From positions 62,001-126,000 of the forward strand of contig NZ_CAOS01000008.1 of the NCBI RefSeq assembly GCF_000315365.1: a stretch of DNA of 64,000 nt, in the 5' to 3' direction. The notes beneath the pieces were generated by a model. That model saw nothing but the letters and a program-made list of their open reading frames with translations. It did no database searches and had not been told where the DNA came from. Source of the DNA: Desulforamulus hydrothermalis Lam5 = DSM 18033 (lineage in GTDB: Bacteria > Bacillota > Desulfotomaculia > Desulfotomaculales > Desulfotomaculaceae). This document shows positions 23,223-57,512 of this stretch, piece after piece (positions within the stretch are counted from its first letter, which is position 1; each line of letters opens with the position of its first letter). A program made the position numbers and the translations under genes.

Positions 23223-23486
23223 CAGAGTGACGACAAACATTAGCGGTGGTTTATGATCCCCTTTGGCTCCGGTCTACGCACCGACAGCACTATGATTCGC
23301 TACGGTCGCCCTTGGGGTCGCCTCAAACGGGCCATCCTGGCCCGGTTCGGCTGGCGCCCACGTCCTGTGGGCGCCACCCCAATGGCTCCTTTCGCTCATC
23401 AAGTGCTGTTGCCGGTGCTTCGACAAGTCGCCGACAGGGGATCACAAAACCGCCTTATTTTGTTTACAACCTTTGTCTACAGTCTG
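23223..23486 (-). repeat. Terminator-associated palindromic repeat R2 (long form, 264 bp)
   Basis: An inverted copy of the element at 57249-57512, also 264 bp and closely similar along its length. Ends are CAGAGTGACGACAAACATTAG and the complement of CAGACTGTAGACAAAGG. Internal features include the hairpin GGCGCCCACGTCCTGTGGGCGCC and the inverted arms around GATCCCCT. Reading frames inside it are not conserved between copies. The 514 bp between 23088 and 23601 contain this element, its two flanking hairpins and about 100 bp of otherwise unremarkable sequence on each side. Confidence 0.85.
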
Positions 23487-23524
23487 AATCCCGTCTCACT
23501 TTATAGTGAAACGGGATTTTTTTA
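23487..23524 (+). terminator. Intrinsic terminator, right copy flanking repeat R2
   Basis: AATCCCGT..TCACT-TTAT-AGTGA..ACGGGATT stem followed by TTTTTTATTTT. The outer stem equals that of the hairpin at 23195. Confidence 0.8.
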
Positions 23525-23601
23525 TTTTGGGGAAGGATCTGGTTATTCCCGGCCTTTGCTAACAGGTTGGCAAACCGGCGCTTTAAATGGCGCTTTTAAA
23601 T

Positions 23602-24336
23602 TTAGTCGGTAAATTCCTGTACATACATTTTGCCATACGGGCCGCCGTTCACCACACCAATGCCTACCTTGGAGTATCGCTCGCTTAAAATATTGGCCCG
23701 GTGGGTCGGCGAATCCATCAGGTTAGTATGGGCCGTATTGACATCAGGTGCGCCGGCCAGGTTTTCCCCGGCATAATGATAGGTAATGCCGTTATTTTTC
23801 ATCATATCGAAGGGTGAACCGTAAGTGGGAGATTGGTGGGAAAAATAGTTTTTGTCAATCATATCCTGGGCTTTCAGACGGGCAATTTGGCTTAACTTAG
23901 CATCCATTGCCAGGGGTTTAAGACCTTTTGCAGCACGTTCCTTATTAATCAGGTTGAGCATGGCCTGCTCATCCGCTGTGCTGATGCCGCCGGCCGGCTG
24001 CCCGGTGCGCACCGTACTGTTAGCCGGTTGGCTGGTCGGGCCGGCAGTATTGTTTTGCGTGTTGTTATATGTGTAATAATTGTAGGTGCGGTAAACAGTG
24101 GTGTTTTGTGTGGCGCCGTTGTTGTACCTTGTGTAGTTGTAGGAGCCATAATTTGCGGTTGTTGTCTGGTAATTATAAGCTTTATAGTTTTGGCTGTTAT
24201 ATGCGGTACTGTTGCTTTTGGTATTGTCATAACTTACATAGGCTTCCGCGGCACTGCCGCCTGTTGCGCCAAAGGCCAGTACCAGGACAAAAACCCCCAG
24301 GATCAGGCCGGAAAATATCCTTGCTGCTGTTCTCAT
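23602..24336 (-). CDS. Secreted CAP (SCP/PR1, YkwD-type) domain protein
   Basis: A 244-residue exported protein with a signal peptide (about 1-31), a low-complexity Tyr/Asn/Thr-rich stretch (about 35-115) and a C-terminal CAP domain (about 122-244; LINKERAAKGLKPL, FSHQSP, YAGENLAG, SPTHRANIL). The CAP histidines and glutamates are present. YkwD-like proteins are often spore-coat or cell-surface proteins; the function is unknown. The ATG has an AGGGGAA SD. The Tyr/Asn/Thr stretch suggests a flexible or adhesive surface linker. Confidence 0.87.
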   Translation of the reverse strand: MRTAARIFSGLILGVFVLVLAFGATGGSAAEAYVSYDNTKSNSTAYNSQNYKAYNYQTTTANYGSYNYTRYNNGATQNTTVYRTYNYYTYNNTQNNTAGPTSQPANSTVRTGQPAGGISTADEQAMLNLINKERAAKGLKPLAMDAKLSQIARLKAQDMIDKNYFSHQSPTYGSPFDMMKNNGITYHYAGENLAGAPDVNTAHTNLMDSPTHRANILSERYSKVGIGVVNGGPYGKMYVQEFTD

Positions 24337-24685
24337 GCAACTTCCCCTTTCGCTATTTTTATTTCCACTAAAAAAGTGGATTAGCTATACTTTATACTAA
24401 CGTATCTGAAACCGGCGTGACAACCAATCATAGCCTGTCTAACACAGGGTTACTCTTAATTAACCCGGCTGTCAAAAAAAAACCTGTCACATTCGCCAAA
24501 TAACTGACAGGTGGGAATTTTTTATAAATTTATTTTACGTTAAAGATTATATTTATGGAGGATTCTTTCTAAAATTGATATTGCTTGGTTGATAATTTTA
24601 ATTTTTCCTGTTACGTTTTCAGTAATTAATCGTATATTATTCAACAAGGCATTTGCCTTGGCAAAATATGTTAGGGGGTTATGAA
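24337..24685. other. Divergent intergenic region with a bidirectional terminator-like hairpin
   Basis: This 349 bp region separates the minus-strand CAP gene from the plus-strand SIMPL gene. It is AT-rich. At 24482-24512 ACCTGTCA and TGACAGGT form a stem with a long loop, followed by AATTTTTTA on the plus strand and TTTTTTTTT on the minus strand. No gene ends here. I see no other clear signal. Confidence 0.5.
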
Positions 24686-25429
24686 ATGGAGCAATCAAAC
24701 AGCAAGGGCAAGTATTATGTCATAGCTGCAGCCCTGCTGGCAGCCGCCCTGGTTATTTGTTCCTTGGTGCTGGCCAACCCGCTGGCAAATTACGCTGCCA
24801 GCCGTTCTTCCATTACGGTTACGGGTTCCGCCAAGAAACAAATTGTTTCCGACCTGGCCGTCTGGCGGGGATCTTTTTACCAGGATTCGGCCACCTTACC
24901 TGAAGCCTATAAAAATTTAAAGGGTGATTTAGAAAAAGTAAAGTCTTATTTAAAAAGCAAAGGTATTGCGGAGGATCAAATAACCGTTTCTTCTATCACT
25001 ACTATGCCGCAATATATTTATAACGCCAACGGCACCAGCACCGGCCAGATCGCCAGTTACCGGCTTTTGCAGAGCGTTGAAATTAAATCCGCCGATGTGC
25101 AGAAAATTGCCGGTATTGCCCGGGAATCCACCGAGTTAATTGAGCAGGGCGTTTTCTTTGAATCTCAGCAGCCGCAATATTTTTATACTAAGCTGAATGA
25201 TTTAAAAGTTAATATGCTGGCGGAAGCCACCAGGGACGCAAAGCTGCGGGCAGAAAAAATGGCGGCCAGCACCGGCAGCCGTATCGGCCCCCTGCGTTCC
25301 GCCAGAATGGGTGTGTTTCAAATAACTCCGGTTAACTCCAACGAAATCTCAGACTACGGCATTAATGATACTTCTTCCATCGAGAAAGAAATCACGGCGG
25401 TGGTTAATGTAGAGTTCAGCATTAAATAG
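24686..25429 (+). CDS. SIMPL domain (DUF541) protein, membrane-anchored
   Basis: About 247 residues with an N-terminal membrane anchor or signal (about 9-35) followed by a SIMPL/DUF541 domain (SSITVTGSAKKQIVSDLAVWRGSF type start, ESTELIEQGVFFE, DAKLRAEKMAASTGSRIGPL). SIMPL proteins form periplasmic or surface oligomers, some linked to stress resistance; the exact role is unknown. ATG at 24686 is chosen because TAGGGGG lies seven bases upstream. Single gene with its own terminator. Confidence 0.88.
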   Translation: MEQSNSKGKYYVIAAALLAAALVICSLVLANPLANYAASRSSITVTGSAKKQIVSDLAVWRGSFYQDSATLPEAYKNLKGDLEKVKSYLKSKGIAEDQITVSSITTMPQYIYNANGTSTGQIASYRLLQSVEIKSADVQKIAGIARESTELIEQGVFFESQQPQYFYTKLNDLKVNMLAEATRDAKLRAEKMAASTGSRIGPLRSARMGVFQITPVNSNEISDYGINDTSSIEKEITAVVNVEFSIK

Positions 25430-25450
25430 ACAGTCTGTCCCTGCCAGAAA

Positions 25451-25497
25451 CAAGCATCCCGTCTCGCCCTTACAGTGAAACGGGATGCTTGTTTTTG
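25451..25497. terminator. Bidirectional terminator (CATCCCG family)
   Basis: CAAGCATCCCG / CGGGATGCTTG hairpin with GTTTTTG on the plus side and TTTCTGG on the minus side, between the SIMPL gene and the convergent helicase gene. Confidence 0.8.
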
Positions 25498-25513
25498 AGT
25501 TTTAGCGGGCGTA

Positions 25514-27070
25514 TTAAAATACCACCGCAGCTTCGTCCCGGTCGATAACCCGGCGCATCTCCCGTACCCGCTCCCGCAGGTGCGGGTTGCTGTGGCTGGC
25601 ATCATCAATCTGGCGCAGTAAATCAATCAGCCGCCGGATAATGGATACGATGTCGCCCTCTTGCAAGCTGGTATTTTCCAACAGGTAGTCCAGCCCCTGG
25701 CCGGTGTACCAGGTATGGGCCACAAAGCCCGGGGTACCGGACCAAACCAAAAAGTGGGGCGGCACACCGGCTGCCAGCAATTCCTCCCGCAGTTCGTAAA
25801 CCGGGCTGGGGTCGTAGGGCGGTGCCGGAACATATTCCCGGCGACCCGGTATATAATCCACTCCGGCTAAAATGCCGGCCACTTGCTCCAGCGGCAGGTC
25901 CTCCAACAGGCCGGCAAAGGCCAGTTCGGTAACAAGAATTTCCTGTACATGCAGCTCCAGGGCAAAGTTGCCCCGGGCAAAAAATTCCCTTCCTTTTATG
26001 TAACCCAGGTTTTCCAGGATGCTTTTTACATAGTGAAATTCATGCACATATTTTTGCGACTGCTGGCGAATCGCATTGAGCTGCCCCAGCAACCCTGCCC
26101 GCTGGTAGCCCAGGGCTTCCAGGCTGTCCCGGGCGTCCGCACACACTTCGTGCAAACAGCGGTGGGCTGGCTGGCTGGCCAGCATTTGCTTAATTTCCTG
26201 AATCTTTTCTCTGCTACCGGGGCGGTTTTTGTACTTGGCGGTGCGCAGGCGTTTTTGTTCCCGTATCAGTTTGCGGCGGTGCAAGGGGCAGGCAGCCTCC
26301 CCCTTCAGCTCGCAAAAGATGCTCTGGAACTGTTGGTAGCGGCGGTTTATATCCTCCAACAGGGCGGTAATTTCCCGCTGGGCCTGCCGCTCCTGGTAGG
26401 CAGAAAAGTTTTGGGTCAGGAAACGATCTATTTCCTCATCTGTTTTCCATTTGAGCAGGCTTAAAACGGTATTGGGTGAAACGGTCAGCCGGCCGTATAC
26501 TGACTCCACTTCTGCTTCATTAAAGAAACCTGTTTGTTCCGGAAATTTATCATCAATACGGATGTACACATGCCCAACCCGGTCAAAACCCCGTCGCCCG
26601 GCCCGGCCCGCCATTTGAAAAAATTCCCGGTTCATCAGGGTGCGAAACTCTTTGCCGTCCCACTTGCGGCAGGAATGAAACAGGGTTGAGGCCGCCGGAA
26701 AATTGACGCCGGCCGCAAAGGTTTCGGTACAAAACAACACCCACAGCAGACGGTTTTCGTACAGCCGTTCCACCAGGTTTTTCAGCACAGGGGACAGTCC
26801 CGCATGGTGATAACCGATACCCTGCTGCAAAAGTTTCCGCAATACCCTGCGGTGCCCCCGCTGAAAAATATCCGGGTGCTCTTTTTCTGCTTCTAAAATG
26901 GCCTTTTGCACCTGTTCTTTTTCATCGGGAAATAAAAAGTCCCATTCCCGTCCCAGTTCAGCCGCCAATTCCTCCGTACGGGCCCGGCCAAACACAAAAT
27001 AAAGGGCGGGCAGGTGATCTTGAACAGCCTCAATGGCGATCGAGGGGTTTTCTGCTGCGACGTGCTCCAC
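25514..27070 (-). CDS. Ski2-like DEAD/DEAH helicase, C-terminal part (RecA2 and arch/C-terminal domains)
   Basis: A 518-residue protein carrying the second half of a Ski2/Mtr4-type helicase: helicase C domain with GIGYHHAGL (about 88), TETFAAGVNFPA (motif V region) and QMAGRAGRRGFD (motif VI), followed by a long helical region with cysteines that resembles the Ski2 C-terminal domain. The ATPase motifs I-III are on the overlapping upstream gene in a different frame. The start is GTG with a perfect AGGAGGTG eight bases upstream. Either the gene is truly split or a single-base frameshift separates the two frames. Confidence 0.8.
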   Translation of the reverse strand: MEHVAAENPSIAIEAVQDHLPALYFVFGRARTEELAAELGREWDFLFPDEKEQVQKAILEAEKEHPDIFQRGHRRVLRKLLQQGIGYHHAGLSPVLKNLVERLYENRLLWVLFCTETFAAGVNFPAASTLFHSCRKWDGKEFRTLMNREFFQMAGRAGRRGFDRVGHVYIRIDDKFPEQTGFFNEAEVESVYGRLTVSPNTVLSLLKWKTDEEIDRFLTQNFSAYQERQAQREITALLEDINRRYQQFQSIFCELKGEAACPLHRRKLIREQKRLRTAKYKNRPGSREKIQEIKQMLASQPAHRCLHEVCADARDSLEALGYQRAGLLGQLNAIRQQSQKYVHEFHYVKSILENLGYIKGREFFARGNFALELHVQEILVTELAFAGLLEDLPLEQVAGILAGVDYIPGRREYVPAPPYDPSPVYELREELLAAGVPPHFLVWSGTPGFVAHTWYTGQGLDYLLENTSLQEGDIVSIIRRLIDLLRQIDDASHSNPHLRERVREMRRVIDRDEAAVVF

Positions 27071-29447
27071 CTTTGCTCCACCTCCTGCTTCTCATGGCAA
27101 ACTCCTCTTCCCGGGCGGCCCGGCGTTCGGCCTGCCGTTCCTGGCTGCGTTTTTGGGCCGCCAGTTCAATGTATTCTCGGGCTTCCTCTTCATCCATAAT
27201 GTTGCCGTCCGAGCTGAGCCAATTAATGGCCAGCGGCACCGCCCGGTTGGTTTCTACCACCACCTCCACCGGTTCCCCCCGCACTTCGCTCATCCAGTCA
27301 GCAATTTCCCGGATGTTTGGCACAGTGGCTGACAAGCCCAGAAATTTAACATGGGGCGGGGCAAAGATGATGCTTTCTTCCCAGGCCGTCCCCCGCTCCG
27401 GGTCATCCAGGTAGTGAATTTCATCAAAAACCACACAGGCCACGTCAGCCAACCCTTCCGGTTCGGCAAAACAGCGGTTGCGAAAAATTTCGGTGGTCAT
27501 AATTAACAGGGGGGCATAGGGGTTAATGGAAATATCCCCGGTTACCAGGCCCACCGTTTCATGGCCAAACACCTGGCGAAAATCAACAAACTTTTGGTTG
27601 CTAAGGGCTTTGAGGGGTGAGGTATACACCGCCGCCTTGCCCTTTTGAATTACTGCTTCGATTAACCGCTCCGCAATAACAGTTTTCCCGGTGCCGGTGG
27701 GCGCCGCCACCAGCACATGGCGTCCCTCCAGGGCAGCCTGTACCGCTTGCTGCTGGAAATCATCCAGCGCCAGCGGCCCCACCGGCGGGGGCGGCGGTGT
27801 CACTGCCCGGCGGGGTCGTTTTTTACCGGCAGGCTGTTTTTCCCGCTTGGCGCTTTCCCGGGCAGCATCCCGCCGCTGCTGTCGTGCCGCCAGTGACCAT
27901 TCGTGTTCGATGCCGGGGAACCTTTCCTTAATGGCTTGAATATCACCCCGTCGCACCAGGATAGTGGTTCGGCCGTCTTCTTTCTCCACTTCCCCGGCCG
28001 GGTTGATGTATCCCTCGCGCACCAGCCGGCGAATTCGGTCGGGCGTGGTATCCAGCAGGTCAGCCGCCTCCAGGGTGGTTATTTTACTGGCTCCCTTGAC
28101 AATTTTGTGCAAAAGCGGGTTATATTTAATGGCTTTAACTTCCTCACGCCAAACCCTGACCTGGCCGGCCAGCCGGAAAGAGGTTAACTCCTCCAGTTCG
28201 CACAGGTTTAAAATATCGGCCTGGCTCAGCTTTAATTTATCCGCTGCTTCCTGCACGGTCATGGAATGTCCCGCCAGCCAGGCGGCCGGCAGCACCGGCG
28301 GCCCCGGCCGGGCTGCCAGGTGCATGCCGGTAAGTCTTTTCAGCTCCTGGGCAATGACCTGTGGGTCGTGGGGATAAGGTGCCGCCCAGAGACCAACACC
28401 GTTGACATTAACCCGGCAAGCCCCTTCCGCCTGCATCATGGTTACTGCCGGTTCCCTTTGTTCGGGCTGCTCCAGCAATGTACCCAGGTTGAAAAAAGGC
28501 TGCCGCCGGTAAATATCAGCCAATTTCTGTTGCAACCCCTGACCCGCTTGCCGCCGTTCCGTTTCTTGCTGTCCGGCCGGAGTGGCGGTGGTGGTGATGC
28601 TGCCGTCCGGCAATATAATAAAGGGCGGAACTTCTTTACCGGTCCGCAGGGAGGCCACCAGGCGGCTGTGCATTTTAAATTTTCTGGTAAAATCAGTTAA
28701 GGTTAACGGGCCATGACCGGCCAGGTAACGGGCGGCATCTTCCCAGGCCGCCGGGCTGTCAGCAGCAGCATAGCGGCCGCTCACCAGCCGCACCACCGGA
28801 AATTTAACCTGGGGCAGCAGCGGGCCGCCCAGCAGCTGCTCCAGCTCCTGTTTGCTTAATGCTTGGCCGTCGGCAAATACTTCCCGCAGCTTTTGTTCCT
28901 GTTTGGCAATCTCTGCTTGCCTTTGCTGTTCTTCCCGGCGCCGCTGCTCTAAGGCCGCCTGTCCTTCAGCAGTGTCAGTGAGGGTAAAACGCCCGTCAGG
29001 CAGTTGGATTAACCGGTTTATTTGCTGCAGGGGAGGCATTTCCCGGTCGCCCAGTTCTGCCTGGATCTGTTCGGCTGTTCGGGGTAAGCCGTCGGCCAGC
29101 AGTCTTAATACTCTGCCCCGGGCATCGTCTTCCAGCAAGGCTGCCAGCTGCCGTTGCCTTACTGCCAGCAGCTGGGGGCTATAGCTCCAGACTCCCTCGC
29201 CAAGCCTGGCTAACTCTGCTGCCGGCACTTCGTTGCGAGCCAGCCAAAGGCCGGCGGCACCGCCTTCGCTTCCCTGGGGCCGGGCGGCTTTTAAGCTGCG
29301 TTGCGCCACCAAAGACTGTAAAGCGGGTAGTAAAAGTTGCGGCTTAATTCTTAATTTTAATGCTAAATCCACCAGTTTTATCGGCTGATCTTCCGGCAGC
29401 CGGGTTAAGATGAACGATTTGAGCTGTTCCTTGTCGTTAACGACCAA
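27030..29447 (-). CDS. Ski2-like DEAD/DEAH helicase, N-terminal part (winged-helix-rich N-terminus and RecA1)
   Basis: An 805-residue protein. The first 500 or so residues form a series of helix-turn-helix / winged-helix-like segments (for example TVQEAADKLKLSQADILNLCE and TTLEAADLLDTTPDRIRRLVREG). From about 570 comes the RecA1 ATPase lobe with AAPTGTGKT (motif I), VVFDEIHYLDD (motif II, DEIH) and LGLSATVPN (motif III). It stops at 27030 without motifs V and VI, which lie in the next frame. Removing one A from the AAA near 27074 would join both frames into a protein of about 1,300 residues. Presumed role: RNA or DNA unwinding. Confidence 0.8.
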   Translation of the reverse strand: MVVNDKEQLKSFILTRLPEDQPIKLVDLALKLRIKPQLLLPALQSLVAQRSLKAARPQGSEGGAAGLWLARNEVPAAELARLGEGVWSYSPQLLAVRQRQLAALLEDDARGRVLRLLADGLPRTAEQIQAELGDREMPPLQQINRLIQLPDGRFTLTDTAEGQAALEQRRREEQQRQAEIAKQEQKLREVFADGQALSKQELEQLLGGPLLPQVKFPVVRLVSGRYAAADSPAAWEDAARYLAGHGPLTLTDFTRKFKMHSRLVASLRTGKEVPPFIILPDGSITTTATPAGQQETERRQAGQGLQQKLADIYRRQPFFNLGTLLEQPEQREPAVTMMQAEGACRVNVNGVGLWAAPYPHDPQVIAQELKRLTGMHLAARPGPPVLPAAWLAGHSMTVQEAADKLKLSQADILNLCELEELTSFRLAGQVRVWREEVKAIKYNPLLHKIVKGASKITTLEAADLLDTTPDRIRRLVREGYINPAGEVEKEDGRTTILVRRGDIQAIKERFPGIEHEWSLAARQQRRDAARESAKREKQPAGKKRPRRAVTPPPPPVGPLALDDFQQQAVQAALEGRHVLVAAPTGTGKTVIAERLIEAVIQKGKAAVYTSPLKALSNQKFVDFRQVFGHETVGLVTGDISINPYAPLLIMTTEIFRNRCFAEPEGLADVACVVFDEIHYLDDPERGTAWEESIIFAPPHVKFLGLSATVPNIREIADWMSEVRGEPVEVVVETNRAVPLAINWLSSDGNIMDEEEAREYIELAAQKRSQERQAERRAAREEEFAMRSRRWSKGGARRSRKPLDRH

Positions 29448-29577
29448 GTTTCACACTCCCCGTCAATAATCTGTCTATTTGTCTTACTGCACATAAACTT
29501 TACCATATTATGAAGGATTTAACCAACGCCTTTGAATTATCATACCCAAATATGATTAAAAGCACAAATTGCACTTG

Positions 29578-29608
29578 CTTAAAAAATCCCCGGTGTTGCT
29601 CCGGGGAT
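29578..29608 (-). terminator. Intrinsic terminator of the diguanylate cyclase gene
   Basis: Minus strand TCCCCGG-AGCAACA-CCGGGGA followed by TTTTTTAAG, fourteen bases past the stop codon. Confidence 0.85.
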
Positions 29609-29621
29609 AAATTGCTTGGTT

Positions 29622-30848
29622 TTACTGGCAGAAGTCATACCGGTTGCGCCCCCGCCTTTTCGCCAGGTATAATCCTTCGTCCGCCCGCTGCAGCAGCATG
29701 TCCGGGGTATCTTCCCGGGTCAGCTCGGCAATGCCGATGCTTACGGTTATCTTTACCGGCTTTTCTTTGCCCGGCAGGATAAATTCCATTCGTTCAATGG
29801 ATTGGCGCAGTCTTTCTGCCACCACGGCCGCTTCCGGCAAGTCGGTTTCCGGCAGTATTATCACCATTTCTTCGCCGCCATAGCGGCAGGCAATATCTTC
29901 CTCCCGCAAATTCAGCAACAGCAGCCGGGAAATATTGCGCAGCACCAGATCGCCGGCCTGGTGCCCGTAGCAGTCGTTAATTTGCTTGAAAAAGTCCAGA
30001 TCCAGCATTAACACGCTGAGGGGCCGGCCATATCTTTTGGCCCGGTTTACTTCTTCCTCCAGCCTTGCCTTCATATACTGGCGGTTATACAGTTTGGTCA
30101 ATTCGTCCAAATACATGGGTTTGCTTAAAATACGAACAGCCCGGTAGAGGAAAAACCCTCCCAGGATGACAATAATGCCAAAACTTATAATTATGATATT
30201 TCTGACATAAAGAATATTTTTAGTGAATTCCTGGCCGGAAATATCCACCCCCAGCAAGCCGACAAACTGCCCGTCCCGCTCAAATATAGGCGCATAACCG
30301 GTAATCAGTTCGCCCCACTTGCTTTTTAAAGGCTCACCGTAGACCGGTTTTTTCTCGGCGTAGGCCTGCTGCCGCAGGGGGTCAGCTACATCGTAACGAT
30401 CCCGGTTGGTGTAGCTGCTTTCGTCCTCACTGGTAAAGACATAAAAATATTCCAGCGGGGTGCCCGGGGGCTGCCCGAAAACATGTTCCTCCTCCGGGGT
30501 GACAAAATAACGGATTTGCGGCCCCTGCAGTTTGGTTTCCACATAGATAAATTTAATATCCTGCTGTTGCAGCAGGGGGGCCATTTGCTTTTTAAAGGCC
30601 AGGGTGGCCGGGTGGCGGCGGGAGCTTTGGATATCCAACCCCTGCATCTCCGCAACCAGCTGCCGATCCAGCCGGACTAACTGCGCTGCCACCTGGGCTG
30701 TGGCCTGGGCCCGTAGCCCGACATTTTTGGCCAACAGCTCATAACAGGCGTGGTAAGCTGAATAGCCCAGGGTGGCCAGGGCCACTGCCATAGCGAAAAA
30801 GGACACAATAAAAATTTGCACCGGTGACGAAAGCTTGATTTTGCCCAT
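29622..30848 (-). CDS. Membrane-bound sensor diguanylate cyclase (GGDEF)
   Basis: A 408-residue protein: membrane segment (about 11-33), an extracytoplasmic sensor of about 190 residues (Cache-like, LLGVDISGQEF near its end), a second membrane segment (about 222-244) and a GGDEF domain (about 250-408). The active-site motif is GGEEM, a likely active variant of GGEEF. An inhibitory I-site RxxD (REED) lies five residues before it. It should make c-di-GMP in response to an external signal. It lies alone on the minus strand. The ATG has only a weak GGAAG SD. Confidence 0.87.
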   Translation of the reverse strand: MGKIKLSSPVQIFIVSFFAMAVALATLGYSAYHACYELLAKNVGLRAQATAQVAAQLVRLDRQLVAEMQGLDIQSSRRHPATLAFKKQMAPLLQQQDIKFIYVETKLQGPQIRYFVTPEEEHVFGQPPGTPLEYFYVFTSEDESSYTNRDRYDVADPLRQQAYAEKKPVYGEPLKSKWGELITGYAPIFERDGQFVGLLGVDISGQEFTKNILYVRNIIIISFGIIVILGGFFLYRAVRILSKPMYLDELTKLYNRQYMKARLEEEVNRAKRYGRPLSVLMLDLDFFKQINDCYGHQAGDLVLRNISRLLLLNLREEDIACRYGGEEMVIILPETDLPEAAVVAERLRQSIERMEFILPGKEKPVKITVSIGIAELTREDTPDMLLQRADEGLYLAKRRGRNRYDFCQ

Positions 30849-30932
30849 CTTCCCACACGCACTTTCATTATGATTGCTTATATTTTAACAGGTGAAAAAT
30901 ATTTATGACAACGAACAATTCTGAATTATATA

Positions 30933-30969: not shown

Positions 30970-30974
30970 CTTGT

Positions 30975-45607: not shown

Positions 45608-45735
45608 AGTATCTTAAGGGCAAACCAATCGAAAGGTTGGGACGCAAAGCCATGGGTCTAAGGCGTCAGGCTATGACTGCCAGGCTGCGGAGGAATTAAA
45701 TTTTGTCCCCTCCGGCTGTCAAGTTGGGAGGATTT
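45608..45735 (+). promoter_or_regulatory. c-di-GMP-I (GEMM) riboswitch with expression platform
   Basis: The aptamer (about 45608-45690) contains the diagnostic pieces GGGCAAACC, CGAAAGG, GGGACGCAAAGCC, GGTCTAAG and the receptor helix ending GCCAGGCTGC. In the platform, CCTCC (45708-45712) can pair either with the upstream GGAGG (45689-45693) or with GGAGG (45727-45731), which is the SD of the HD-GYP gene and is followed by eight Ts. The second pairing would both hide the SD and act as a terminator. Confidence 0.93.
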
Positions 45736-50384: not shown

Positions 50385-50444
50385 ATTGTTTTTCTTTAAT
50401 ATCTTGCTTTGCCCAAAAATAGTGCCCTGCCGTACTGGCCGATT

Positions 50445-50460
50445 GTTAGTCTGGGCTAAC
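50445..50460. promoter_or_regulatory. Operator-like palindrome copy 2 (GTTAG-N6-CTAAC)
   Basis: GTTAG-TCTGGG-CTAAC, 35 bp before the feoA start, likely overlapping the promoter or transcript start. Confidence 0.5.
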
Positions 50461-50463
50461 ATA

Positions 50464-50479
50464 GTTAAGTACTTCTAAC
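50464..50479. promoter_or_regulatory. Operator-like palindrome copy 3 (GTTAA-N6-CTAAC)
   Basis: GTTAA-GTACTT-CTAAC, 19 bp after copy 2 start to start, directly before the feoA SD site. Same half-sites and spacing as copies 1 and 2. Confidence 0.5.
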
Positions 50480-50494
50480 ATGAGGGGGATATTT

Positions 50495-50776
50495 ATGCTC
50501 AAGCAACAGCCTGTTTTTCCCGGTACGCCGGTGGTAGCTCTTTGTGACCTGCCGGTAGGAAAAGCTGCCGTGGTTAATACTGTCCAGGGAGAAGGCATTA
50601 TCCGGCGCCGCATGCTGGACTTGGGATTGGTGCCGGGCACCCGGGTGGAAGCCCTGCGCATCAGCCCGGCCGGGGATCCGAAAGCCTACAAAATCCGAGG
50701 TGCAGTGATAGCCCTGCGGCGGGAAGAGGGAGCCAACATACTGGTCAGCTTGAAGGAGGAAACAACATGGGGTTAA
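50495..50776 (+). CDS. feoA: FeoA-type ferrous iron transport accessory protein
   Basis: A 93-residue SH3-like FeoA protein with ALCDLPVGKAAVV, IRRRMLDLGLVPGTRVE and GAVIALRREEGANILV. FeoA binds or regulates FeoB at the cytoplasmic face. ATG at 50495 is chosen with GGGGG six bases upstream; an earlier in-frame ATG at 50480 lies before that SD. The stop overlaps the start of the FeoB G-domain gene by ten bases. Confidence 0.92.
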   Translation: MLKQQPVFPGTPVVALCDLPVGKAAVVNTVQGEGIIRRRMLDLGLVPGTRVEALRISPAGDPKAYKIRGAVIALRREEGANILVSLKEETTWG

Positions 50777-51546
50777 CACACCGGTCCTGCGGCAGCGGGG
50801 CCAGTCGGGAAGCTTTTTATCAGGCCGGCGCAACCGAAACAGATTATGTCATTGCACTGGCAGGTAACCCCAATACCGGCAAAAGCACCTTGTTTAATGC
50901 CTTAACCGGCTTACGCCAGCACACCGGCAACTGGCCCGGCAAAACGGTACTGCGGGCAACCGGCAAATATATTTTTCAGGGGCGGCTGTATGAACTCATT
51001 GACCTGCCCGGCACTTACTCGTTATTGGCTCAGTCTGCGGAGGAGCAGGTTGCCAGGGATTACCTGTGCTTTGGCCGGCCGCACGCCACCATTGTGGTGG
51101 TGGATGCCACTTGTTTAGAAAGAAATCTCAACCTGGCCTTACAGGTGCTGGAAATTACCTCCCGGGTGGTGGTTTGTGTCAACTTGATAGATGAAGCAAA
51201 ACGAAAAAATATTGAGATAAATATTTCTGCCCTGTCAAACGAGTTGGGGGTTCCGGTGGTAGCTACGGCTGCCCGGGAGGGTGCCGGTCTGCCGGCATTG
51301 CAACAAGCAGTGGCGGCGGTGGCCGAGGGCAGCGTTAAGACATCGCCCCGCCGGGTGCGGTATGATCAAGTAATTGAACAGTGCATTGCCCGACTGGAAC
51401 CAAAAATCAAAGAATTGGTAGGTGAGACACTCAACAGCCGCTGGCTGGCCTTACGTTTCCTGGACGGTGATGCAACGGTCGTCCGCGCTCTGGCGGAATG
51501 GTTGGCAAGGGGCAAGGCGGTGGTGGGGGGTGATATACTGGTATGA
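50767..51546 (+). CDS. feoB: FeoB G-protein domain (split FeoB, cytoplasmic subunit)
   Basis: A 259-residue protein equal to the soluble N-terminal part of FeoB. G1 is GNPNTGKST (residue 33), the switch region has TGNWPGKTV, G3 is DLPGTYSL and G4 is NLID. A helical linker like the GDI domain of FeoB follows (about 195-259). There is no membrane segment. It ends with TGA within ATGA, which also starts the membrane part, so the two are tightly coupled. In most bacteria both parts form one polypeptide. Confidence 0.93.
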   Translation: MGLTHRSCGSGASREAFYQAGATETDYVIALAGNPNTGKSTLFNALTGLRQHTGNWPGKTVLRATGKYIFQGRLYELIDLPGTYSLLAQSAEEQVARDYLCFGRPHATIVVVDATCLERNLNLALQVLEITSRVVVCVNLIDEAKRKNIEINISALSNELGVPVVATAAREGAGLPALQQAVAAVAEGSVKTSPRRVRYDQVIEQCIARLEPKIKELVGETLNSRWLALRFLDGDATVVRALAEWLARGKAVVGGDILV

Positions 51547-52931
51547 GTTGCCAAACAAACAATTTGTATAATATTGTAAAAGAAGCTAACGTTTTAAAAC
51601 AAAAACATGCTTTACAAATTAACGACAGGGTGGTCAGCGAGATTTATCATCAGGCAGAAGCAATTGCCCGGCGGGTCGTTTGCCACCGATCCAAACCCGG
51701 GCTTGATTGGGATGAACGGCTGGATAACATCCTTACCTCAAGAATTTGGGGATTCCCTTCGATGCTGTTGCTGCTGGGCATGGTCTTTTGGCTGACGGTG
51801 GCCGGCGCCAATTACCCCTCGCAGCTGATTGCCGCCGTACTTTTCTGGGGCCAGGACCGCCTGTGGGACTTACTTAACTGGTTGCAGGCACCGCACTGGT
51901 TGATAAGTTTCGGGGTGGAAGGTGTGTACCGCTGCCTGGCCTGGGTGGTTTCGGTTATGCTGCCGCCGATGGCAATATTTTTTCCCTGCTTTACCTTGCT
52001 GGAAGACTTGGGTTACTTGCCCCGGGTGGCCTTTAACCTGGATCGTTTTTTCAAAAGCGTGGGTGCCCATGGCAAACAAGCCCTGACCATGAGTATGGGT
52101 TTTGGCTGCAACGCTGCCGGGGTAGTGGCCTGCCGGATTATAGAATCGCCCCGGGAACGTTTGATTGCCATGCTGACCAACAGTTTTGTTCCTTGCAACG
52201 GCCGTTTCCCAACTTTGATTACGCTGGCCGGCTGCCTGGTTTTTGGCTTCGGCAGCAGCCTGGCCACCACAGCTGTGGTAGTAGGGGTTGTCCTGTTTGG
52301 TATTGCAGTTACACTGGGGGTTTCCTGGCTGCTTTCCCACACCCTGCTTAAGGGAGTACCTTCTTCTTTTGCGCTGGAATTACCCCCCTACAGAAAACCG
52401 CAAATCGGCAAGGTTATATTACGCTCTGTCTTTGACCGCACTTTATTTGTCCTGGGCCGGGCGGTTTGCGTGGCAGCACCGGCCGGGGCGGTTATCTGGC
52501 TGCTGGCTAATATCCGGGTAGGCGGCATCAGCCTCCTGGCCCGCGGGGCTGACTTGTTAAATCCCCTGGCCCAACCAATGGGACTGGACGGTTTCATTTT
52601 AATGGCATTTATTTTAGGTTTGCCGGCCAACGAGATCGTGCTGCCCATTCTTATGATGGGTTATCTGGCGGCCGGATCCTTGACAGAGCTCAACAGTTTG
52701 CAGGACTTGCACCATCTGCTGGTGGTTCAGCACGGCTGGACCTGGTTAACCGCTGTGTGCGTGATGCTGTTTTCGCTGCTGCACTATCCCTGCGGCACCA
52801 CTCTGTGGACCATTTGGCGTGAAGCGGGCAGTATCAAGTGGGCTTTGCTGGCCGCGGCTATTCCCCTGGCCGTTGCCTGCACGGTTTGTTTTCTCACAGC
52901 CCAGGGCGCCAGAATACTTGGTTTGGTTTAA
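51543..52931 (+). CDS. feoB: FeoB membrane permease domain (split FeoB, membrane subunit)
   Basis: A 462-residue protein equal to the membrane part of FeoB. It starts with about 75 hydrophilic residues ending RLDNILTSRIWGFP, the usual linker before the first FeoB membrane helix, and then has two Gate-type halves (CFTLLEDLGYLPRVAF, MSMGFGCNAAGVVACRIIESPRER, FILGLPANEIVLPI and a second half). Cysteines in GFGCNAAG and SFVPCNGR resemble those of the iron path. It overlaps the G-domain gene by four bases. Confidence 0.93.
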   Translation: MSCQTNNLYNIVKEANVLKQKHALQINDRVVSEIYHQAEAIARRVVCHRSKPGLDWDERLDNILTSRIWGFPSMLLLLGMVFWLTVAGANYPSQLIAAVLFWGQDRLWDLLNWLQAPHWLISFGVEGVYRCLAWVVSVMLPPMAIFFPCFTLLEDLGYLPRVAFNLDRFFKSVGAHGKQALTMSMGFGCNAAGVVACRIIESPRERLIAMLTNSFVPCNGRFPTLITLAGCLVFGFGSSLATTAVVVGVVLFGIAVTLGVSWLLSHTLLKGVPSSFALELPPYRKPQIGKVILRSVFDRTLFVLGRAVCVAAPAGAVIWLLANIRVGGISLLARGADLLNPLAQPMGLDGFILMAFILGLPANEIVLPILMMGYLAAGSLTELNSLQDLHHLLVVQHGWTWLTAVCVMLFSLLHYPCGTTLWTIWREAGSIKWALLAAAIPLAVACTVCFLTAQGARILGLV

Positions 52932-52949
52932 ATAAGGACCCGGGGTGGT

Positions 52950-53378
52950 TTATGCTTTTGGTCTGGCTGCTTCCTTCCGGCAGTAGGTTTTGAAATCATC
53001 CAGCCAGGAGGGGTGCTGCTCGGTAAACTTAACAAAATTTATGATGGCTGTAAGGGTAGGCAGCGACAGGTAGTGTTCCATAGCTTCCGCCTCCGCTGCC
53101 ACATCGCATTGGGAACCGATTAGCCGCAAAAACTCTCTGATATATCTGTTCCGTTCAACTAAAAAATGACCCAGTTGCTTTCCTTGCTCGGTTAACACAA
53201 TATCTTTATAGGGGCGGTAGTAAATATACCTGCTTTCGTTTAATCTTTGCAGTGCCCGGGTCACCGACGGCAGGCTTACCTTTAAGCAGGCAGCAATGTC
53301 TGACACCCGCACCGCTTCGCCCCGCTGGCTCAGTCGGTAGATTTCTTCCAGGTAATCTTCTAAGCTGGGAGATAACAC
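52950..53378 (-). CDS. DtxR/MntR-family metal-dependent regulator
   Basis: A 142-residue protein with an N-terminal winged helix (about 1-65; SLEDYLEEIYRL, VRVSDIAACLKVSLPSVTRALQRL) and a metal-binding dimerisation domain (about 70-140; AEAEAMEHYLS, with candidate Glu/His ligands). The lack of a C-terminal SH3-like domain and the length match MntR-type proteins. It is convergent with the feo operon and is the obvious candidate to bind the three operators before feoA. Fe or Mn specificity cannot be told. The start is GTG. Confidence 0.88.
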   Translation of the reverse strand: MLSPSLEDYLEEIYRLSQRGEAVRVSDIAACLKVSLPSVTRALQRLNESRYIYYRPYKDIVLTEQGKQLGHFLVERNRYIREFLRLIGSQCDVAAEAEAMEHYLSLPTLTAIINFVKFTEQHPSWLDDFKTYCRKEAARPKA

Positions 53379-53439
53379 ACCTTCACACCCCCTTTATTTA
53401 GCATATAAGTAAGGGGGCATTTTATTACCTCTTAAGGTG

Positions 53440-53477
53440 CGAAAATATTCAGCCACCGGCAATGCCGGCCGGTGGCT
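53440..53477 (-). terminator. Intrinsic terminator of cobT
   Basis: Minus strand AGCCACCGGC / GCCGGTGGCT with a short loop followed by GAATATTTTC, seven bases past the cobT stop. Confidence 0.7.
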
Positions 53478-53483
53478 CAAGTC

Positions 53484-54542
53484 TTATTCGCCCTGGCTGA
53501 CTCCTGCCTCGGCAAAGGTAGCCATTTCATTAATTATGCAGATGGCGGCTTCAATAATGGGAAAGGCCAGGGCCGCCCCGGTGCCCTCGCCCAGCCGCAT
53601 GGCCATCTGCAGCATTGGTTTTAAACCCAGCATTTCCAGCATAATGGCATGGCCCGGTTCCTGGGACCGGTGAGATGCCAGCATATAGGCCGCACTCAAG
53701 GGAGCCAGGGAGCGGGCCACCAAAGCGGCGGCGCAGGAAATAAAGCCGTCCAGAACCACCGGTATTTTCTCGGCGGCACAGCCTAAAATGATACCGGCCA
53801 TGCCGGCAATTTCCAAGCCGCCCACTTTAGCCAAAACATCCAGCCCGTCCCGGGCATCCGGCCGGTTTACCTTTAGCGCCCGTTCCACCACAGCTGCTTT
53901 ATGCTGCCGCCGGGTTTCATCAATGCCGGTACCCCGGCCGGTTATTTGCTCAGCGGGCAGACCGCTGAAAGCTGCTAAAACAGCGGTGCTGGCAGTGGTA
54001 TTGCCAATTCCCATTTCGCCGATGCCCACCAGGGCCGGGCGTTGTTTTACCTGCTGCTTAAGCAGTGTAATACCTGTTTCCAGGGCTGTTACAGCCTCCT
54101 GCCGGCTCATGGCAGGCCCATGCACAAAATTATCCGTACCGGCTTTAACCCGGCAGTTAACCAGGCCCTCGTGTGCTATGACAGGTCCGGCCACACCGAT
54201 ATCTGCCACCACCACTCTGGCTCCCGCCCGGCGTGCCAGCACGTTAATGGCTGCGCCACCCCGCAAAAAATTCAACACCATTTGCGGTGTGACTTCCTGA
54301 GGAAAAGCGCTCACTCCCTCTGCCACCACGCCGTGATCACCGGCCAGCACCAGAGAGACTTTTTCTTGGGGCAACCGGGGCAGCGGGGTACCCTGCATGC
54401 CTGCCAACCGGCGGGCAATATCCTCCAGCACGCCCAGGCTGCCCGGCGGTTTGGTAAGGTTGTCCAGCCTTTGCTGGGCCAATTCTTCACAGTTGTAATC
54501 AGGCGGTGTAATTTTTTCCAGAGTTTGCGCAAGTAATGACAT
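53484..54542 (-). CDS. cobT: Nicotinate-nucleotide-dimethylbenzimidazole phosphoribosyltransferase
   Basis: A 352-residue CobT that makes alpha-ribazole phosphate for the lower ligand. Present: TKPPGSLGVLEDIA near residue 32, AGDHGVVAEGVSAFPQEVT near 70, GIGEMGIGNTT near 175 and the catalytic glutamate in LGEGTGAALA near 318. The ATG has AAGGAGG nine bases upstream. It stands alone on the minus strand under a cobalamin riboswitch. CobU or CobY and BzaA-type benzimidazole genes are not in the window. Confidence 0.95.
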   Translation of the reverse strand: MSLLAQTLEKITPPDYNCEELAQQRLDNLTKPPGSLGVLEDIARRLAGMQGTPLPRLPQEKVSLVLAGDHGVVAEGVSAFPQEVTPQMVLNFLRGGAAINVLARRAGARVVVADIGVAGPVIAHEGLVNCRVKAGTDNFVHGPAMSRQEAVTALETGITLLKQQVKQRPALVGIGEMGIGNTTASTAVLAAFSGLPAEQITGRGTGIDETRRQHKAAVVERALKVNRPDARDGLDVLAKVGGLEIAGMAGIILGCAAEKIPVVLDGFISCAAALVARSLAPLSAAYMLASHRSQEPGHAIMLEMLGLKPMLQMAMRLGEGTGAALAFPIIEAAICIINEMATFAEAGVSQGE

Positions 54543-54603
54543 AGCCTATTCCCTCCTTAGCATGTTTATACCTTGTCGCCACGCTTCTCAGGCACTGCCT
54601 GCA

Positions 54604-54640
54604 TAAATAAAAAATCCCAGCCTGAAAAGGCTGAGAACTT
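54604..54640 (-). terminator. Riboswitch-controlled terminator before cobT
   Basis: Minus strand CAGCCTT-TT-CAGGCTG hairpin followed by GGATTTTTTATTT, between the cobalamin riboswitch and cobT. Confidence 0.8.
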
Positions 54641-54654
54641 TGCCATCATCCTCA

Positions 54655-54840
54655 GATAACATGGATCCTCCAGGCAGGTCTCCTGGCTTACGGGTCATGG
54701 CCTGATAACCTGCCTTCCCGGCCTGCGGCCAGTGGCTTTAAATGGTATCGGCTCTCCGTTTACAGTGGCGGGACCGCTCGGGACTTGCACCCGATTCCCT
54801 ATTCTCCCCGGTGGGGCACCTGCAGGAATCTTTTGTTGCT
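54655..54840 (-). promoter_or_regulatory. Cobalamin riboswitch controlling cobT
   Basis: On the minus strand the conserved pieces are in order: GGGAATCGGGTGCAAGTCCC, GAGCGGTCCCGCCACTG, the variable stem, GCCGGGAAGGCAGG and GCCAGGAGACCTGCCTG. A TATAAT lies upstream on the minus strand at 54958-54963. With the terminator at 54604 it should switch cobT off when cobalamin is abundant. Confidence 0.95.
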
Positions 54841-55015
54841 GAAAGATATTTTAATAGCTCAAGCAAAATCTGGCAATATCTTTTTACTGCCGTACCGGAA
54901 ATTGCCCTTTGGCCGCCTTCCGGAACAGGCTAACACCCTCAGGCTCTTTTTTGAAAAATTATATAGACACTAAATGAAATAAGTGTTATTATTTCCAAAG
55001 AAATTCATATATGTG

Positions 55016-55215
55016 AAAGTATCAGGTACCCCCTGCGGCAGGGGGTTTAAAAGGGAATCGGGTGCAAATCCCGAACGGTCCGGCCACTGTGATGGGCTAG
55101 TTAGTTTCATTATTTCACCACTGGTTAAACCGGGAAGGTTGAAACTAGCGCTGATGCCTCAGTCAGGAGACCTGCCTGATGCTTAACTGACCCTCCCGCG
55201 GAGAGGCAAGCAGTT
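55016..55215 (+). promoter_or_regulatory. Cobalamin riboswitch controlling cbiK-cbiM-cbiN
   Basis: Plus strand pieces: GGGAATCGGGTGCAAATCCC, GAACGGTCCGGCCACTGTGATG, ACCGGGAAGGTTGAAAC and GTCAGGAGACCTGCCTGATG. Downstream, GGCAAGC (55205-55211) can pair with GCTTGCC (55263-55269) as an antiterminator, competing with the terminator at 55256. It is back to back with the cobT riboswitch, about 175 bp apart. Confidence 0.95.
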
Positions 55216-55255
55216 GCAACCGGTTATAAGGGGCTTTTATGCCTTTTTAACCTTT

Positions 55256-55292
55256 CCTTAGCGCTTGCCGTTAAGGTTTTTTTATTTTTATT
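55256..55292 (+). terminator. Riboswitch-controlled terminator before cbiK
   Basis: CCTTAGCG-CTTGC-CGTTAAGG stem followed by TTTTTTTATTTTTATT. Its loop region contains the GCTTGCC that can pair with the riboswitch 3' side. Confidence 0.85.
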
Positions 55293-55311
55293 GAAAGGCT
55301 GGTAATGTAAA

Positions 55312-56148
55312 TTGGTTGACAAGCAGGCTATTTTGCTGGTTACGTTTGGTACCAACGTGGCCGAAGCTGCCGCATCCTTCAGCAAGCTGGAAAGGAAAGT
55401 CAAAGAGACTTTTCCCGGCATTGAGGTTCGCTGGGCTTACACCGCCAAAACCATTCGTGCTGCCCTGGCGCAACAGGGCAAGCCGGTGGACAGCCCCATT
55501 ACCGCTCTGGCCAAACTGCAGGATGAGGGCTACACCAGGGTAGCCGTACAGTCTGTACACGTTTTGCCCGGTCAGGAATTTTACGACCTGGTAAATATTG
55601 TTGACAACATGGCGCGTTTTCAGGGCTCAACAGGCAAATATTTTCAATCAAGAATTGGCAAGTTTGGCTTTCACCGCTTAACGCTGGGGGCACCCCTGCT
55701 CTACAAGCCGGCAGATTACCGGGCGGTGACAGAAGCCATTAAATACCTGCGGCCTGCCGCACCGGACCATGCCCTGGTTTTAGTGGGTCACGGCAGCAAC
55801 CACCACACCTTCAGTGCTTACGGCTGTCTGAATGATATGCTGCGGCAATCCTGCGACAACGTTTTTTTAGGTACAGTAGAAGGATATCCTTCCCTGGCAG
55901 AAGTTAAAGCTGATTTGGCCAAAAAACCGTTTCGCCAGGTTACTCTCCTGCCCTTTATGAACATCGCCGGTGATCATGCCATTAACGATTTGGCCGGTGC
56001 TGAGGAGGATTCCTGGAAAAATCAACTGGCCCGCAGTTACCGGGTGTCTGTCTGTTTAACCGGCCTGCTGGATTATCTGCCCATCATTGAAATATACATC
56101 AGTCATTTGCAAGAAGCCTTTAATAAATTAACCGACCCTGCCAAATAA
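55312..56148 (+). CDS. cbiK: Sirohydrochlorin cobaltochelatase, CbiK type
   Basis: A 278-residue CbiK-family chelatase. [13 protein letters not shown] at the start is the family's first strand, LVGHGSNHH (about residue 158) carries a catalytic histidine, and [18 protein letters not shown] (about 215) carries another metal-binding histidine. It inserts Co2+ into sirohydrochlorin to begin the cobalt-early pathway. No signal peptide, so it should be cytoplasmic, unlike the exported CbiK of some sulfate reducers. The start is TTG with a weak SD. First gene under the plus-strand B12 riboswitch. Confidence 0.93.
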
Positions 56149-56161
56149 AGGAGTGATTGGT

Positions 56162-56926
56162 ATGCCTTTAAAGCATCCGGCCCGTTGGGTTCTTTTGGTA
56201 CCCCTGTTCCTTCTGCTGGCACCGCAGCATGCTTACGCCATGCACATTATGGAAGGCTTTTTGCCTGCCAGATGGTGTCTGGTCTGGTTTGTTTTATCAG
56301 CCCCCTTTCTCATACTGGGTCTGAGATCCATTCAAACACATATTAACCGCAACCCGCAAGTAAAAATGCTGCTGGGACTGGCCGGGGCCTTTGCCTTTGT
56401 ACTTTCCGCCCTTAAAATTCCTTCCGTTACCGGCAGTTGTTCTCACCCCACCGGGGTAGGGCTGGGGGCCGTTTTATTTGGTCCCTTGGCCATGAGTGTG
56501 CTGGGTTGTATTGTATTAATATTTCAGGCCCTGTTACTGGCCCACGGCGGTCTTACCACTCTGGGCGCCAACACCTTCTCCATGGCTGTGGTGGGCCCAC
56601 TGGCAGCTTACGGTATTTTTAAACTAACCAGGAAGCTGGGCGGGCCCAACCGGCCGGCAGTTTTTCTGGCTGCCGCCCTGGGCGACCTGCTTACTTATGT
56701 TACCACTTCCCTGCAACTGGCCCTGGCTTTTCCTGCTGCCGACGGCGGTATTACAGCCTCTTTGGTAAAATTTACGGGTATCTTTGCGCTAACCCAGGTA
56801 CCCCTGGCCATCAGCGAAGGTTTGTTAACTGTGCTTATTTTTAACCTCTTACAATCCTACGCCACTAACGACCTGAAGCTGCTGCAGCACTTATCTGAGG
56901 AGGTAAAGTATGAGTACAATCACTAA
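56162..56926 (+). CDS. cbiM: Cobalt ECF transporter S component CbiM
   Basis: A 254-residue membrane protein. A cleavable signal (APQHAYA) would expose the N-terminal MHIMEGFLP, whose Met and His ligate Co2+ in CbiM. Further membrane segments contain [18 protein letters not shown] and [18 protein letters not shown] at 56162 has AAAGGAG upstream. The stop overlaps the cbiN start by 17 bases. Confidence 0.95.
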
Positions 56927-57221
56927 AGACCGCCCTGCTAAAAAGAAAAGGGCTGTTAATTTGTGCTTGTTAGCAGCGGTGGTGGTTCTGGCCGTTTTGC
57001 CTTTGTTGCTGGTTCATGATGCAGAATTTGGCGGGGCCGACGGCCAGGCAGAAGCTGCCATAACTGAAATAAAGGCGGATTATCAACCCTGGTTCCAGCC
57101 CCTGTGGGAACCGCCCAGCAGCGAAATTGAGAGCCTGCTGTTTGCCCTGCAGGCCGCTCTGGGGGCCGGTTTTATCGGCTATTATTTCGGTTTCCGGCGG
57201 GGCAAAAAAAACAGCGGCTAA
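56910..57221 (+). CDS. cbiN: Cobalt transporter small subunit CbiN
   Basis: A 103-residue protein with two membrane segments (about 15-33 and 76-95) and an external loop with [23 protein letters not shown] typical of CbiN (positions about 43-65). It aids metal loading of CbiM. CbiQ and CbiO, the energy-coupling parts, do not follow; repeat R3 and cbiL come next. Confidence 0.92.
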
Positions 57222-57225
57222 GCCG

Positions 57226-57247
57226 GAAGGGTATTTTCATACCCTTC
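57226..57247 (+). terminator. Terminator-type hairpin, left copy flanking repeat R3
   Basis: GAAGGGTAT-TTTC-ATACCCTTC, four bases after the cbiN stop, directly followed by the start of R3. The same stem recurs at 57514 on the other side. Confidence 0.65.
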
Positions 57248-57248
57248 T

Positions 57249-57512
57249 CAGACTGTAGACAAAGGTTGTGAAACAAAGTGAAGCGGTTTTATGATCCCCT
57301 GTCGGCGACTTGTCGAAGCACCGGTCACAGCACTTGATGAGCGAAGGAGCCCTTGGGGTGGCGCCCACAGGACGTGGGCGCCGGCCGAACCGGGCCAGGA
57401 GGGCCCGTTTGAGGCGACCCCAAGGGCCACCGTAGCGAATCATAGTGCTGTCGGTGCGTAGACCGGAGCCAAAGGGGATCATAAACCACCGCTAATGTTT
57501 GTCGACACTCTG
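57249..57512 (+). repeat. Terminator-associated palindromic repeat R3 (long form, 264 bp)
   Basis: Starts CAGACTGTAGACAAAGG and ends GTTTGTCGACACTCTG, with inverted inner arms GGTTTTATGATCCCC / GGGGATCATAAACC and a central GC-rich hairpin. It has the same length as R2 (inverted there) and very similar sequence. The 436 bp between cbiN and cbiL contain this element, its two flanking hairpins and the cbiL leader. Confidence 0.85.

Follow-up and report, generated by a model that had tools for sequence, protein, structure and literature searches.

Short elements with a TwoAYGGAY core, very probably IS1182-family MITEs, lie between duplicated terminator hairpins in Desulforamulus hydrothermalis

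The draft genome of Desulforamulus hydrothermalis carries at least 62 distinct copies of a short element of 42-272 bp, which has terminal inverted repeats of about 16 bp (CAGAsTGTmGACAAAs). In our view these copies are very likely MITEs that duplicate the hairpin they target and that owed their mobility to DDE transposases of the IS1182 family acting in trans. Allowing one mismatch at most, a genome-wide count gives 168 occurrences of the end motif CAGANTGTNGACAAA, versus 5 for a reversed control. The 62 copies were drawn from 72 rows by removing overlapping alternative pairings, the hand-named rows L122:613 and L095:455, and the segmental duplicate L092, and copies with a single recognisable end were excluded from the counts. 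Nine core-matching copies (L009, L016, L027, L061, L065, L066, L074, L089, and L094) have ends beyond the mismatch limits and stand outside this set. In a looser scan of these nine and 10 newly fetched stretches, for which the element borders are crude, 9 of the 19 exceeded the maximum of the mismatched-flank control given below.

Four copies are present in the window, the 64,000-nt stretch of DNA that was analysed as a whole. A sequence-only reading of this stretch had described a family of three copies there, and their coordinates and ends are as claimed, with a pair of same-stem hairpins around each and with stems that differ from site to site. The family is real but was incomplete, as a fourth copy had been overlooked and many more are found genome-wide. 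The copy at 231-345 (plus strand, 115 bp; L137) is internally deleted, keeping both ends and losing its TwoAYGGAY core, and lies between the left copy of a duplicated terminator hairpin at 210-230, with a AAAGGCCC stem, and the right copy at 346-365. Two elements of 264 bp are found at 23223-23486 (minus strand; L008) and 57249-57512 (plus strand; L001). The former is flanked by a terminator hairpin with a ATCCCGTT stem at 23195-23222 and its partner with a T tract at 23487-23518, and the latter by a hairpin with a GAAGGGTAT stem at 57226-57247 and its T-tract partner at 57514-57537. The overlooked copy, at 59972-60048 (minus strand, 77 bp; L115), is also internally deleted; its left hairpin at 59951-59970 fits the T-tract hairpin at 60050-60071 better when inverted.

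The two flanks share a direct repeat, a duplication of the target site that has the dyad of the hairpin at its centre. In 56 of the 62 copies the flanks resemble each other more than in any of 3,782 mismatched flank pairings, which is beyond chance, and the common repeat is usually the whole terminator hairpin. The duplications are mostly 17-29 bp long, their centre falls within 0.5 nt of the dyad centre at 37 of 41 sites, and on either side the hairpin base is 0-2 nt from the element at 48 of 49 sites. The dyad-centre test took the place of a length correlation (0.87, duplication versus palindrome), which was discarded because the element bounds both lengths. When duplication length was compared with the longest possible palindrome in empty sites built in silico, the correlation was weak (0.37), and so the cut is not simply made where the maximal stem begins. 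An open reading frame ends into the element at 56 of the 62 sites (median distance 34 bp), and the majority of paired copies are found where genes end, with a hairpin on either side. Copies L105 and L118 have only 7-8 bp repeats and no clear hairpin, and copy L005 sits in a loop. Hairpin loops can invert, and an inverted rather than a direct hairpin pair was favoured in four rows; one of these, L013, arose artificially from the choice of hairpin, so that L026, L067, and the 77-bp window copy remain.

The search for a transposase with matching ends, which the sequence-only reading had proposed, led to congeners, which carry IS1182-family insertion sequences of 1.5-1.6 kb with ends that are the same as or similar to those of the element. 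The copy in D. putei (G001) encodes a 490-aa transposase that scores 456.2 bits against the IS1182 model NF033551 (cut-off 270), and the domains of the partner transposase are DUF772, DDE_Tnp_1, and DDE_Tnp_1_6. All eight full copies with readable flanks in two further congeners (G008 and G004) lie between duplicated hairpins. The five 1,607-bp copies of G008 all have the ends of the element and identical hairpin duplications of 21-27 bp, and dyad-symmetric duplications of 22-35 bp were found at all three G004 copies and at 9 of 30 IS1182 loci across the phylum. Hairpin duplication was not found at 17 of those 30 loci. The automatic duplication search also returned a 9-bp repeat without a hairpin at IS1182 locus L292, and a false pair of negative length at locus L278 that was rejected.

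Within the D. hydrothermalis genome itself, no close relative of the partner transposase was found at E<=1e-10, and the IS1182 model gave only four weaker matches (best 1.1e-24). Its six loci of the DDE_Tnp_1 and DUF772 families lack the end motif at up to three mismatches, save for isolated weak matches. As no close transposase relative is found in this genome, mobilisation may be historical, or the insertion sequence may be missing from the 16-contig draft. Judged as IS1182-family MITEs, the copies share their ends with an insertion sequence that encodes an IS1182 transposase and, being too short for a 490-aa protein, have no transposase of their own, and no partner was found in the same genome. 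Among the rve-family transposase loci of the genome, two were read as open reading frames and resemble IS21 by eye. The long-duplication IS1202 family, another candidate, was dropped once the IS1182 partner had been found.

Other origins for the paired hairpins can be weighed against this evidence. Group IIC introns insert beside terminator hairpins and the element is long and structured, but a retroelement, which the sequence-only reading had offered as an alternative, or a group IIC-type intron homing to terminators is highly improbable: the element has terminal inverted repeats and a target-site duplication, an autonomous DDE insertion sequence carries such ends, and an Rfam scan of the window returned no intron family at gathering score. 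It is about equally hard to believe that the element takes the place of the hairpin, as IS1272 does. IS1272 and TnSha1 of staphylococci belong to the same transposase family and use the same class of target, stem-loops that include many terminators and have no sequence consensus according to passages of PMC4923244 and PMC5678879, and no duplication is detectable at several IS1182 loci whose ends are of the GGGGCTG type; however, the hairpin is duplicated and not deleted in 56 of the 62 copies and in all eight autonomous copies of G008 and G004. Paired terminators might also be ancestral, with the element merely sitting between them. The loops of the paired hairpins differ at all four window sites, as had been observed in the sequence-only reading for its three copies, but this does not hold generally, as at the 49 sites where both hairpins score well the loops differ at 24 and are identical at 25. 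The identical duplications around the G008 insertion sequences also argue against ancestral pairs, as do the element-free sites in D. putei. The D. putei orthologue of the 59972 site has one strong hairpin, and the site matching 57249 has a single hairpin with a weak fold (z -1.4), so that neither of the two sites examined holds a pair. We therefore give ancestral pairing very little credence.

The proposal of a non-autonomous, MITE-like element that duplicates terminators is thus upheld by the terminal inverted repeats, the dyad-centred duplications, the D. putei site at 59972 that clearly has one hairpin and no element, and the IS1182 partners, which also duplicate hairpins. An IS1182-family transposase would act in trans on the MITE and insert it at a terminator stem-loop, which would be duplicated whole as direct copies around the element; recognition of the target as a cruciform may be involved, as one possibility. 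The T tract stays on a hairpin's outer side, which should preserve termination and place the element in 3' untranslated RNA. With age, the loops of the copies diverge slightly more than their stems, a few loops look inverted, and some interiors are lost. The element itself need not rebuild a terminator, as had also been suggested, because the duplication already supplies one.

Like IS1272 and TnSha1, this system combines an IS1182-family transposase with insertion at palindromic stem-loops. In the published passages, IS1272 deletes the stem-loop without a duplication, whereas the Desulforamulus branch duplicates it whole, which corresponds to pathway b in the PMC5678879 model. The ISMac2-related MITEs of the IS1182 family likewise derive from an IS1182 partner and are short and non-autonomous; in passages of PMC3852290 their direct repeats are apparently 4 and 0 bp (two table rows, with the column order taken from the legend), and terminator hairpins are not mentioned in those passages. 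The IS1202 group also duplicates an unusually long stretch of its target (16-28 bp), but the passages of PMC10132070 treat it as a separate family and report no target for the long-duplication group.

The core of the element is the Rfam RNA TwoAYGGAY (RF01731) by covariance-model score. In the window it occupies 23271-23425 (minus strand, 59.3 bits) and 57311-57464 (plus strand, 50.8 bits) of the two 264-bp elements, above the gathering score of 43. The genome has at least 55 RF01731 matches, all 55 among the matches listed over the cut-off and one of them partial. The sequence-only reading made no mention of this identity. Rfam lists TwoAYGGAY as a cis-regulatory RNA, whereas in D. hydrothermalis it forms the inner part of a transposable element, with both AnGGA loops kept.

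Binding of CsrA, a global regulator, has been predicted for the TwoAYGGAY family (PMC4333381), and the element could instead be primarily a functional regulatory RNA, a putative two-site CsrA-binding module that is spread by transposition and kept by selection. We regard this as unlikely, while acknowledging that several results favour it. Both A-n-GGA hairpin loops are intact in all 47 full-length copies, although many copies were located through the core, which biases the set towards intact ones. Divergence per site is 0.031 in the core versus 0.063-0.098 in four end segments, with the ends more diverged in 43 of the 47 copies, and within the core it is 0.018 at paired and 0.059 at unpaired sites. 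The core also recurs in other palindromic frames in relatives, where one comparison left out the truncated L171, L190, and L192 of 29 loci. However, changes seen in a single copy, which most probably arose after insertion, occur at the same rate at paired (0.0083) and unpaired (0.0087) core sites and are just 1.4-1.7 times rarer in the core than in the ends. Most of the difference between core and ends may therefore reflect subfamily history or gene conversion. Few changes in the core are compensatory: four two-sided ones keep pairing, versus 0.24 in shuffles, and 33 one-sided ones break pairs, with the pairs themselves picked from the alignment being tested. In addition, 15 of the 62 copies are short (42-195 bp), most of them too short for the core, and the element shows little preference for one orientation with respect to genes (GGA-sense only at 23 sites, antisense only at 16, and both at 17). 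The boldest reading, which we regard as unlikely, is that the element, by duplicating terminators as it inserts, plants a predicted two-site CsrA-binding RNA in dozens of 3' UTRs while leaving termination unbroken, that selection keeps the core after insertion, and that the copies jointly act as a genome-wide CsrA sponge or as a transposon-built CsrA regulon.

For the IS1182 family, the copies described here form a natural series showing stem-loop duplication, a pathway given as one possibility in the published IS1272 model, and the series comprises the 56 MITEs, the eight autonomous copies in two congeners, and the nine further IS1182 loci across the phylum. Because a hairpin with its T tract is left on the outer side, each insertion would cost little, which suggests that a high copy number can be reached at terminators at little cost to the host. 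The orphan Rfam family TwoAYGGAY is, at least in part, transposon cargo, and this status alters how its proposed role as a CsrA sponge should be tested.

The three copies that the sequence-only reading had proposed, at 231-345, 23223-23486 and 57249-57512, were all found in place, each with the claimed ends (CAGACTGTAGACAAAGG or CAAACTGTAGACAAAGG type at one end, CACTCTG type at the other) and each flanked on both sides by hairpins sharing one stem. Pairing of ends added a fourth copy of 77 bp on the minus strand (59972-60048), and Rfam identified the interior of both 264-bp copies as TwoAYGGAY (RF01731), with scores of 59.3 and 50.8 bits, both above the gathering score of 43. In the whole genome (2.69 Mb, 16 contigs), BLAST gave at least 40 near-full-length matches of 91-100% identity (40 of 180 candidates were scored), the RF01731 covariance model gave 55 matches, and the end motif CAGANTGTNGACAAA occurred 168 times with at most one mismatch, compared with 5 occurrences of its reversed control. 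We paired ends in 30 BLAST loci, 30 covariance-model loci (many of them shared) and 49 further stretches; once alternative pairings and one segmental duplicate were taken out, at least 62 distinct copies were counted, of which 47 measure 254-272 bp and 15 measure 42-195 bp. Outside this set stand nine core-matching copies beyond the end limits, a full copy at C11:141624-141888 and nine end-motif places, and in a looser scan 9 of these 19 stretches beat the flank control described below, the rest being one-ended, decayed or poorly bounded. Short copies can form by deletion in place, as L126 is 57 bp long here while its orthologue (L031, L267) in the genome taken as D. putei DSM 12395 measures 265 bp. 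At one locus (L119, G000 C10:83900-86400) the insertion site and its flanks are present twice, about 0.7 kb apart, as a local tandem duplication.

The flanks of these copies bear the mark of hairpin duplication. When the 40 nt before each element were aligned to the 40 nt after it, similarity exceeded the highest of 3,782 mismatched pairings in 56 of 62 copies. Among the six that did not exceed this maximum, two (L067 and L115, the latter being the copy at 59972) gave a better flank match in inverted orientation, two (L100 and L116) scored exactly the control maximum and have recognisable hairpins, and two (L105 and L118) have repeats of only 7-8 bp. Well-scoring hairpins lie on both sides at 49 of 62 sites, and on each side the element is 0-2 nt from the hairpin base at 48 of these 49. 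At least five T within 8 nt outside the hairpins were found on at least one side at 40 of the 49 sites and on both sides at 11. The loops of paired hairpins are identical at 25/49 sites; mismatches at the 45 directly matching sites affect 39 of 773 stem positions and 18 of 209 loop positions, so loops differ somewhat more often. At L026, L067 and L115 (window 59951-60071), the hairpins match better with one reverse-complemented, as though a loop had inverted after duplication.

Joining the flanks in silico gave 67 empty sites (62 MITEs and 5 autonomous copies), and at 41 of them the flanks can share a repeat 12 nt or longer with no more than one mismatch. The centre of this repeat falls within 0.5 nt of the hairpin centre in 37 of the 41 and 1-1.5 nt off in three, while in L005 it is centred in the loop, 5.5 nt off. 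Repeat length ranges from 12 to 29 nt (median 22) and is weakly correlated (0.37) with the longest possible palindrome. Because the centres coincide and the length correlation is weak, the cut is symmetric around the dyad, but in some cases falls away from the base of the maximal stem. Orthologous flanks of 78-79% identity lacking the element were found in D. putei for two sites. At 59972 there is a single strong hairpin resembling a terminator (-30.3 kcal/mol, z -7.2), and at 57249 a single weak one (z -1.4) in a diverged stretch, which makes the latter site poor evidence; in five other genus genomes the upstream gene of site 57249 is closely followed by the next gene.

The mobilising element was sought in nine genus genomes, where end-motif pairs lie 1,607 bp apart in G008, a Desulforamulus congener, and 1,604 bp apart in D. 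putei. All five 1,607-bp copies lie between identical duplicated hairpins, with duplications of 21-27 bp; the flanks of both full D. putei copies are unreadable because each copy sits at a contig end. The D. putei element encodes a 490-aa IS1182-family protein (NCBIfam, 456.2 bits, cut-off 270), which had zero matches at E<=1e-10 in the genome of D. hydrothermalis itself, where the IS1182 model gave four weaker matches (best 1.1e-24). Another congener, G004, has a 54-55% identical transposase in three copies, all with CAGACTGTCAAA ends and all flanked by dyad-symmetric duplications (22, 34 and 27 bp). Repeated CAGACTGAAGTCAAAGG ends in G008 (L200, L202-L205) possibly belong to a second related element. 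Across the phylum, the IS1182 model exceeded its cut-off in 70 of 398 genomes, and 9 of the 30 loci fetched have dyad-symmetric duplications of 22-35 bp. Of the other loci, L278 is missing its right end and L294 runs to a contig end; L279 and L284 have ends of the same kind as the duplicating loci, but the hairpins on their two sides differ, which may reflect recombination between copies. Hairpin duplication is absent at 17 of the 30, one of which (L292) has a 9-bp repeat and several of which have GGGGCTG-type ends. Such ends were seen at L276, L280, L282 and L289, where duplication was not found; L276 has an A run on one side and a T run on the other, the arrangement that stem-loop replacement should leave.

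Replacement of this kind is described for IS1272/TnSha1, whose targets are hairpins, including many terminators, and which removes the stem-loop (PMC4923244). PMC5678879 credits palindrome targeting by some IS1182 members to a review, and in its model duplication of the entire stem-loop would result from attack at the 5' feet. Among the titles and abstract openings listed, with subscription journals and ISfinder outside the search, none described an IS1182-family element that duplicates the full stem-loop, or TwoAYGGAY carried as transposon cargo.

With the neighbour gene defined as the longest ORF (80 aa or more) lying no further than 250 bp away, the raw count is 56 of 62 sites with an ORF ending towards the element, a median of 34 bp off. 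ORFs run in the sense of the GGA loops only at 23 sites, antisense only at 16, both ways at 17 and neither at 6. The copy at 57249 lies downstream of a cbiMN-like pair and upstream of a cobI-like gene, both named by eye. Two Rfam cobalamin riboswitches (54656-54838, minus strand; 55007-55193, plus strand) are divergent and about 170 bp apart, near cobalt/cobalamin genes named by eye, and a c-di-GMP-I-GGC riboswitch lies at 45610-45693 (68.1 bits).

TwoAYGGAY is proposed to bind CsrA, and sRNAs of this type are proposed for Clostridia (PMC4333381). The core also occurs in relatives inside other long palindromes. Cores of this kind (L032-L035, L039-L043, L045-L046, L048-L049, L051, L138-L143, L145-L148) have differing, mutually complementary outer stems and, by eye, no IS1182 ends. 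RF01731 matched in 51 of 398 phylum genomes, over the cut-off in 34, and IS1182-type ends were found at 2 of the 26 loci with whole flanks, in two further genera: L182 is 264 bp long and its hairpin duplication, of 20 bp, is perfect; L188 has weaker ends and no clear duplication.

The core may be cargo retained by selection, or it may merely be exchanged and homogenised among copies. In the 47 full-length copies, the core diverges from consensus at 0.031 per site, the outer stem at 0.012 and the four end segments at 0.063-0.098, the ends being more diverged than the core in 43 of 47 (Wilcoxon p 2e-8). Within the core, divergence is 0.018 at paired and 0.059 at unpaired sites. CAGGA, the five loop positions of both hairpins, is invariant in 47/47, a set in which many copies were retrieved through the core itself, which favours intact cores; the following base is variable, with changes in 11 copies at one hairpin and 14 at the other. 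Singleton rates count against selection after insertion: within the core they are 0.0083 (paired sites) and 0.0087 (unpaired sites), and the ends have 0.012-0.015, so the contrast is mostly a shared difference at subfamily level. A 254-258 bp subfamily (L087, L091, L096, L098, L100) has ends that are 22-29% diverged and a core that is only 3-6% diverged, as though different end sets had swapped cores.
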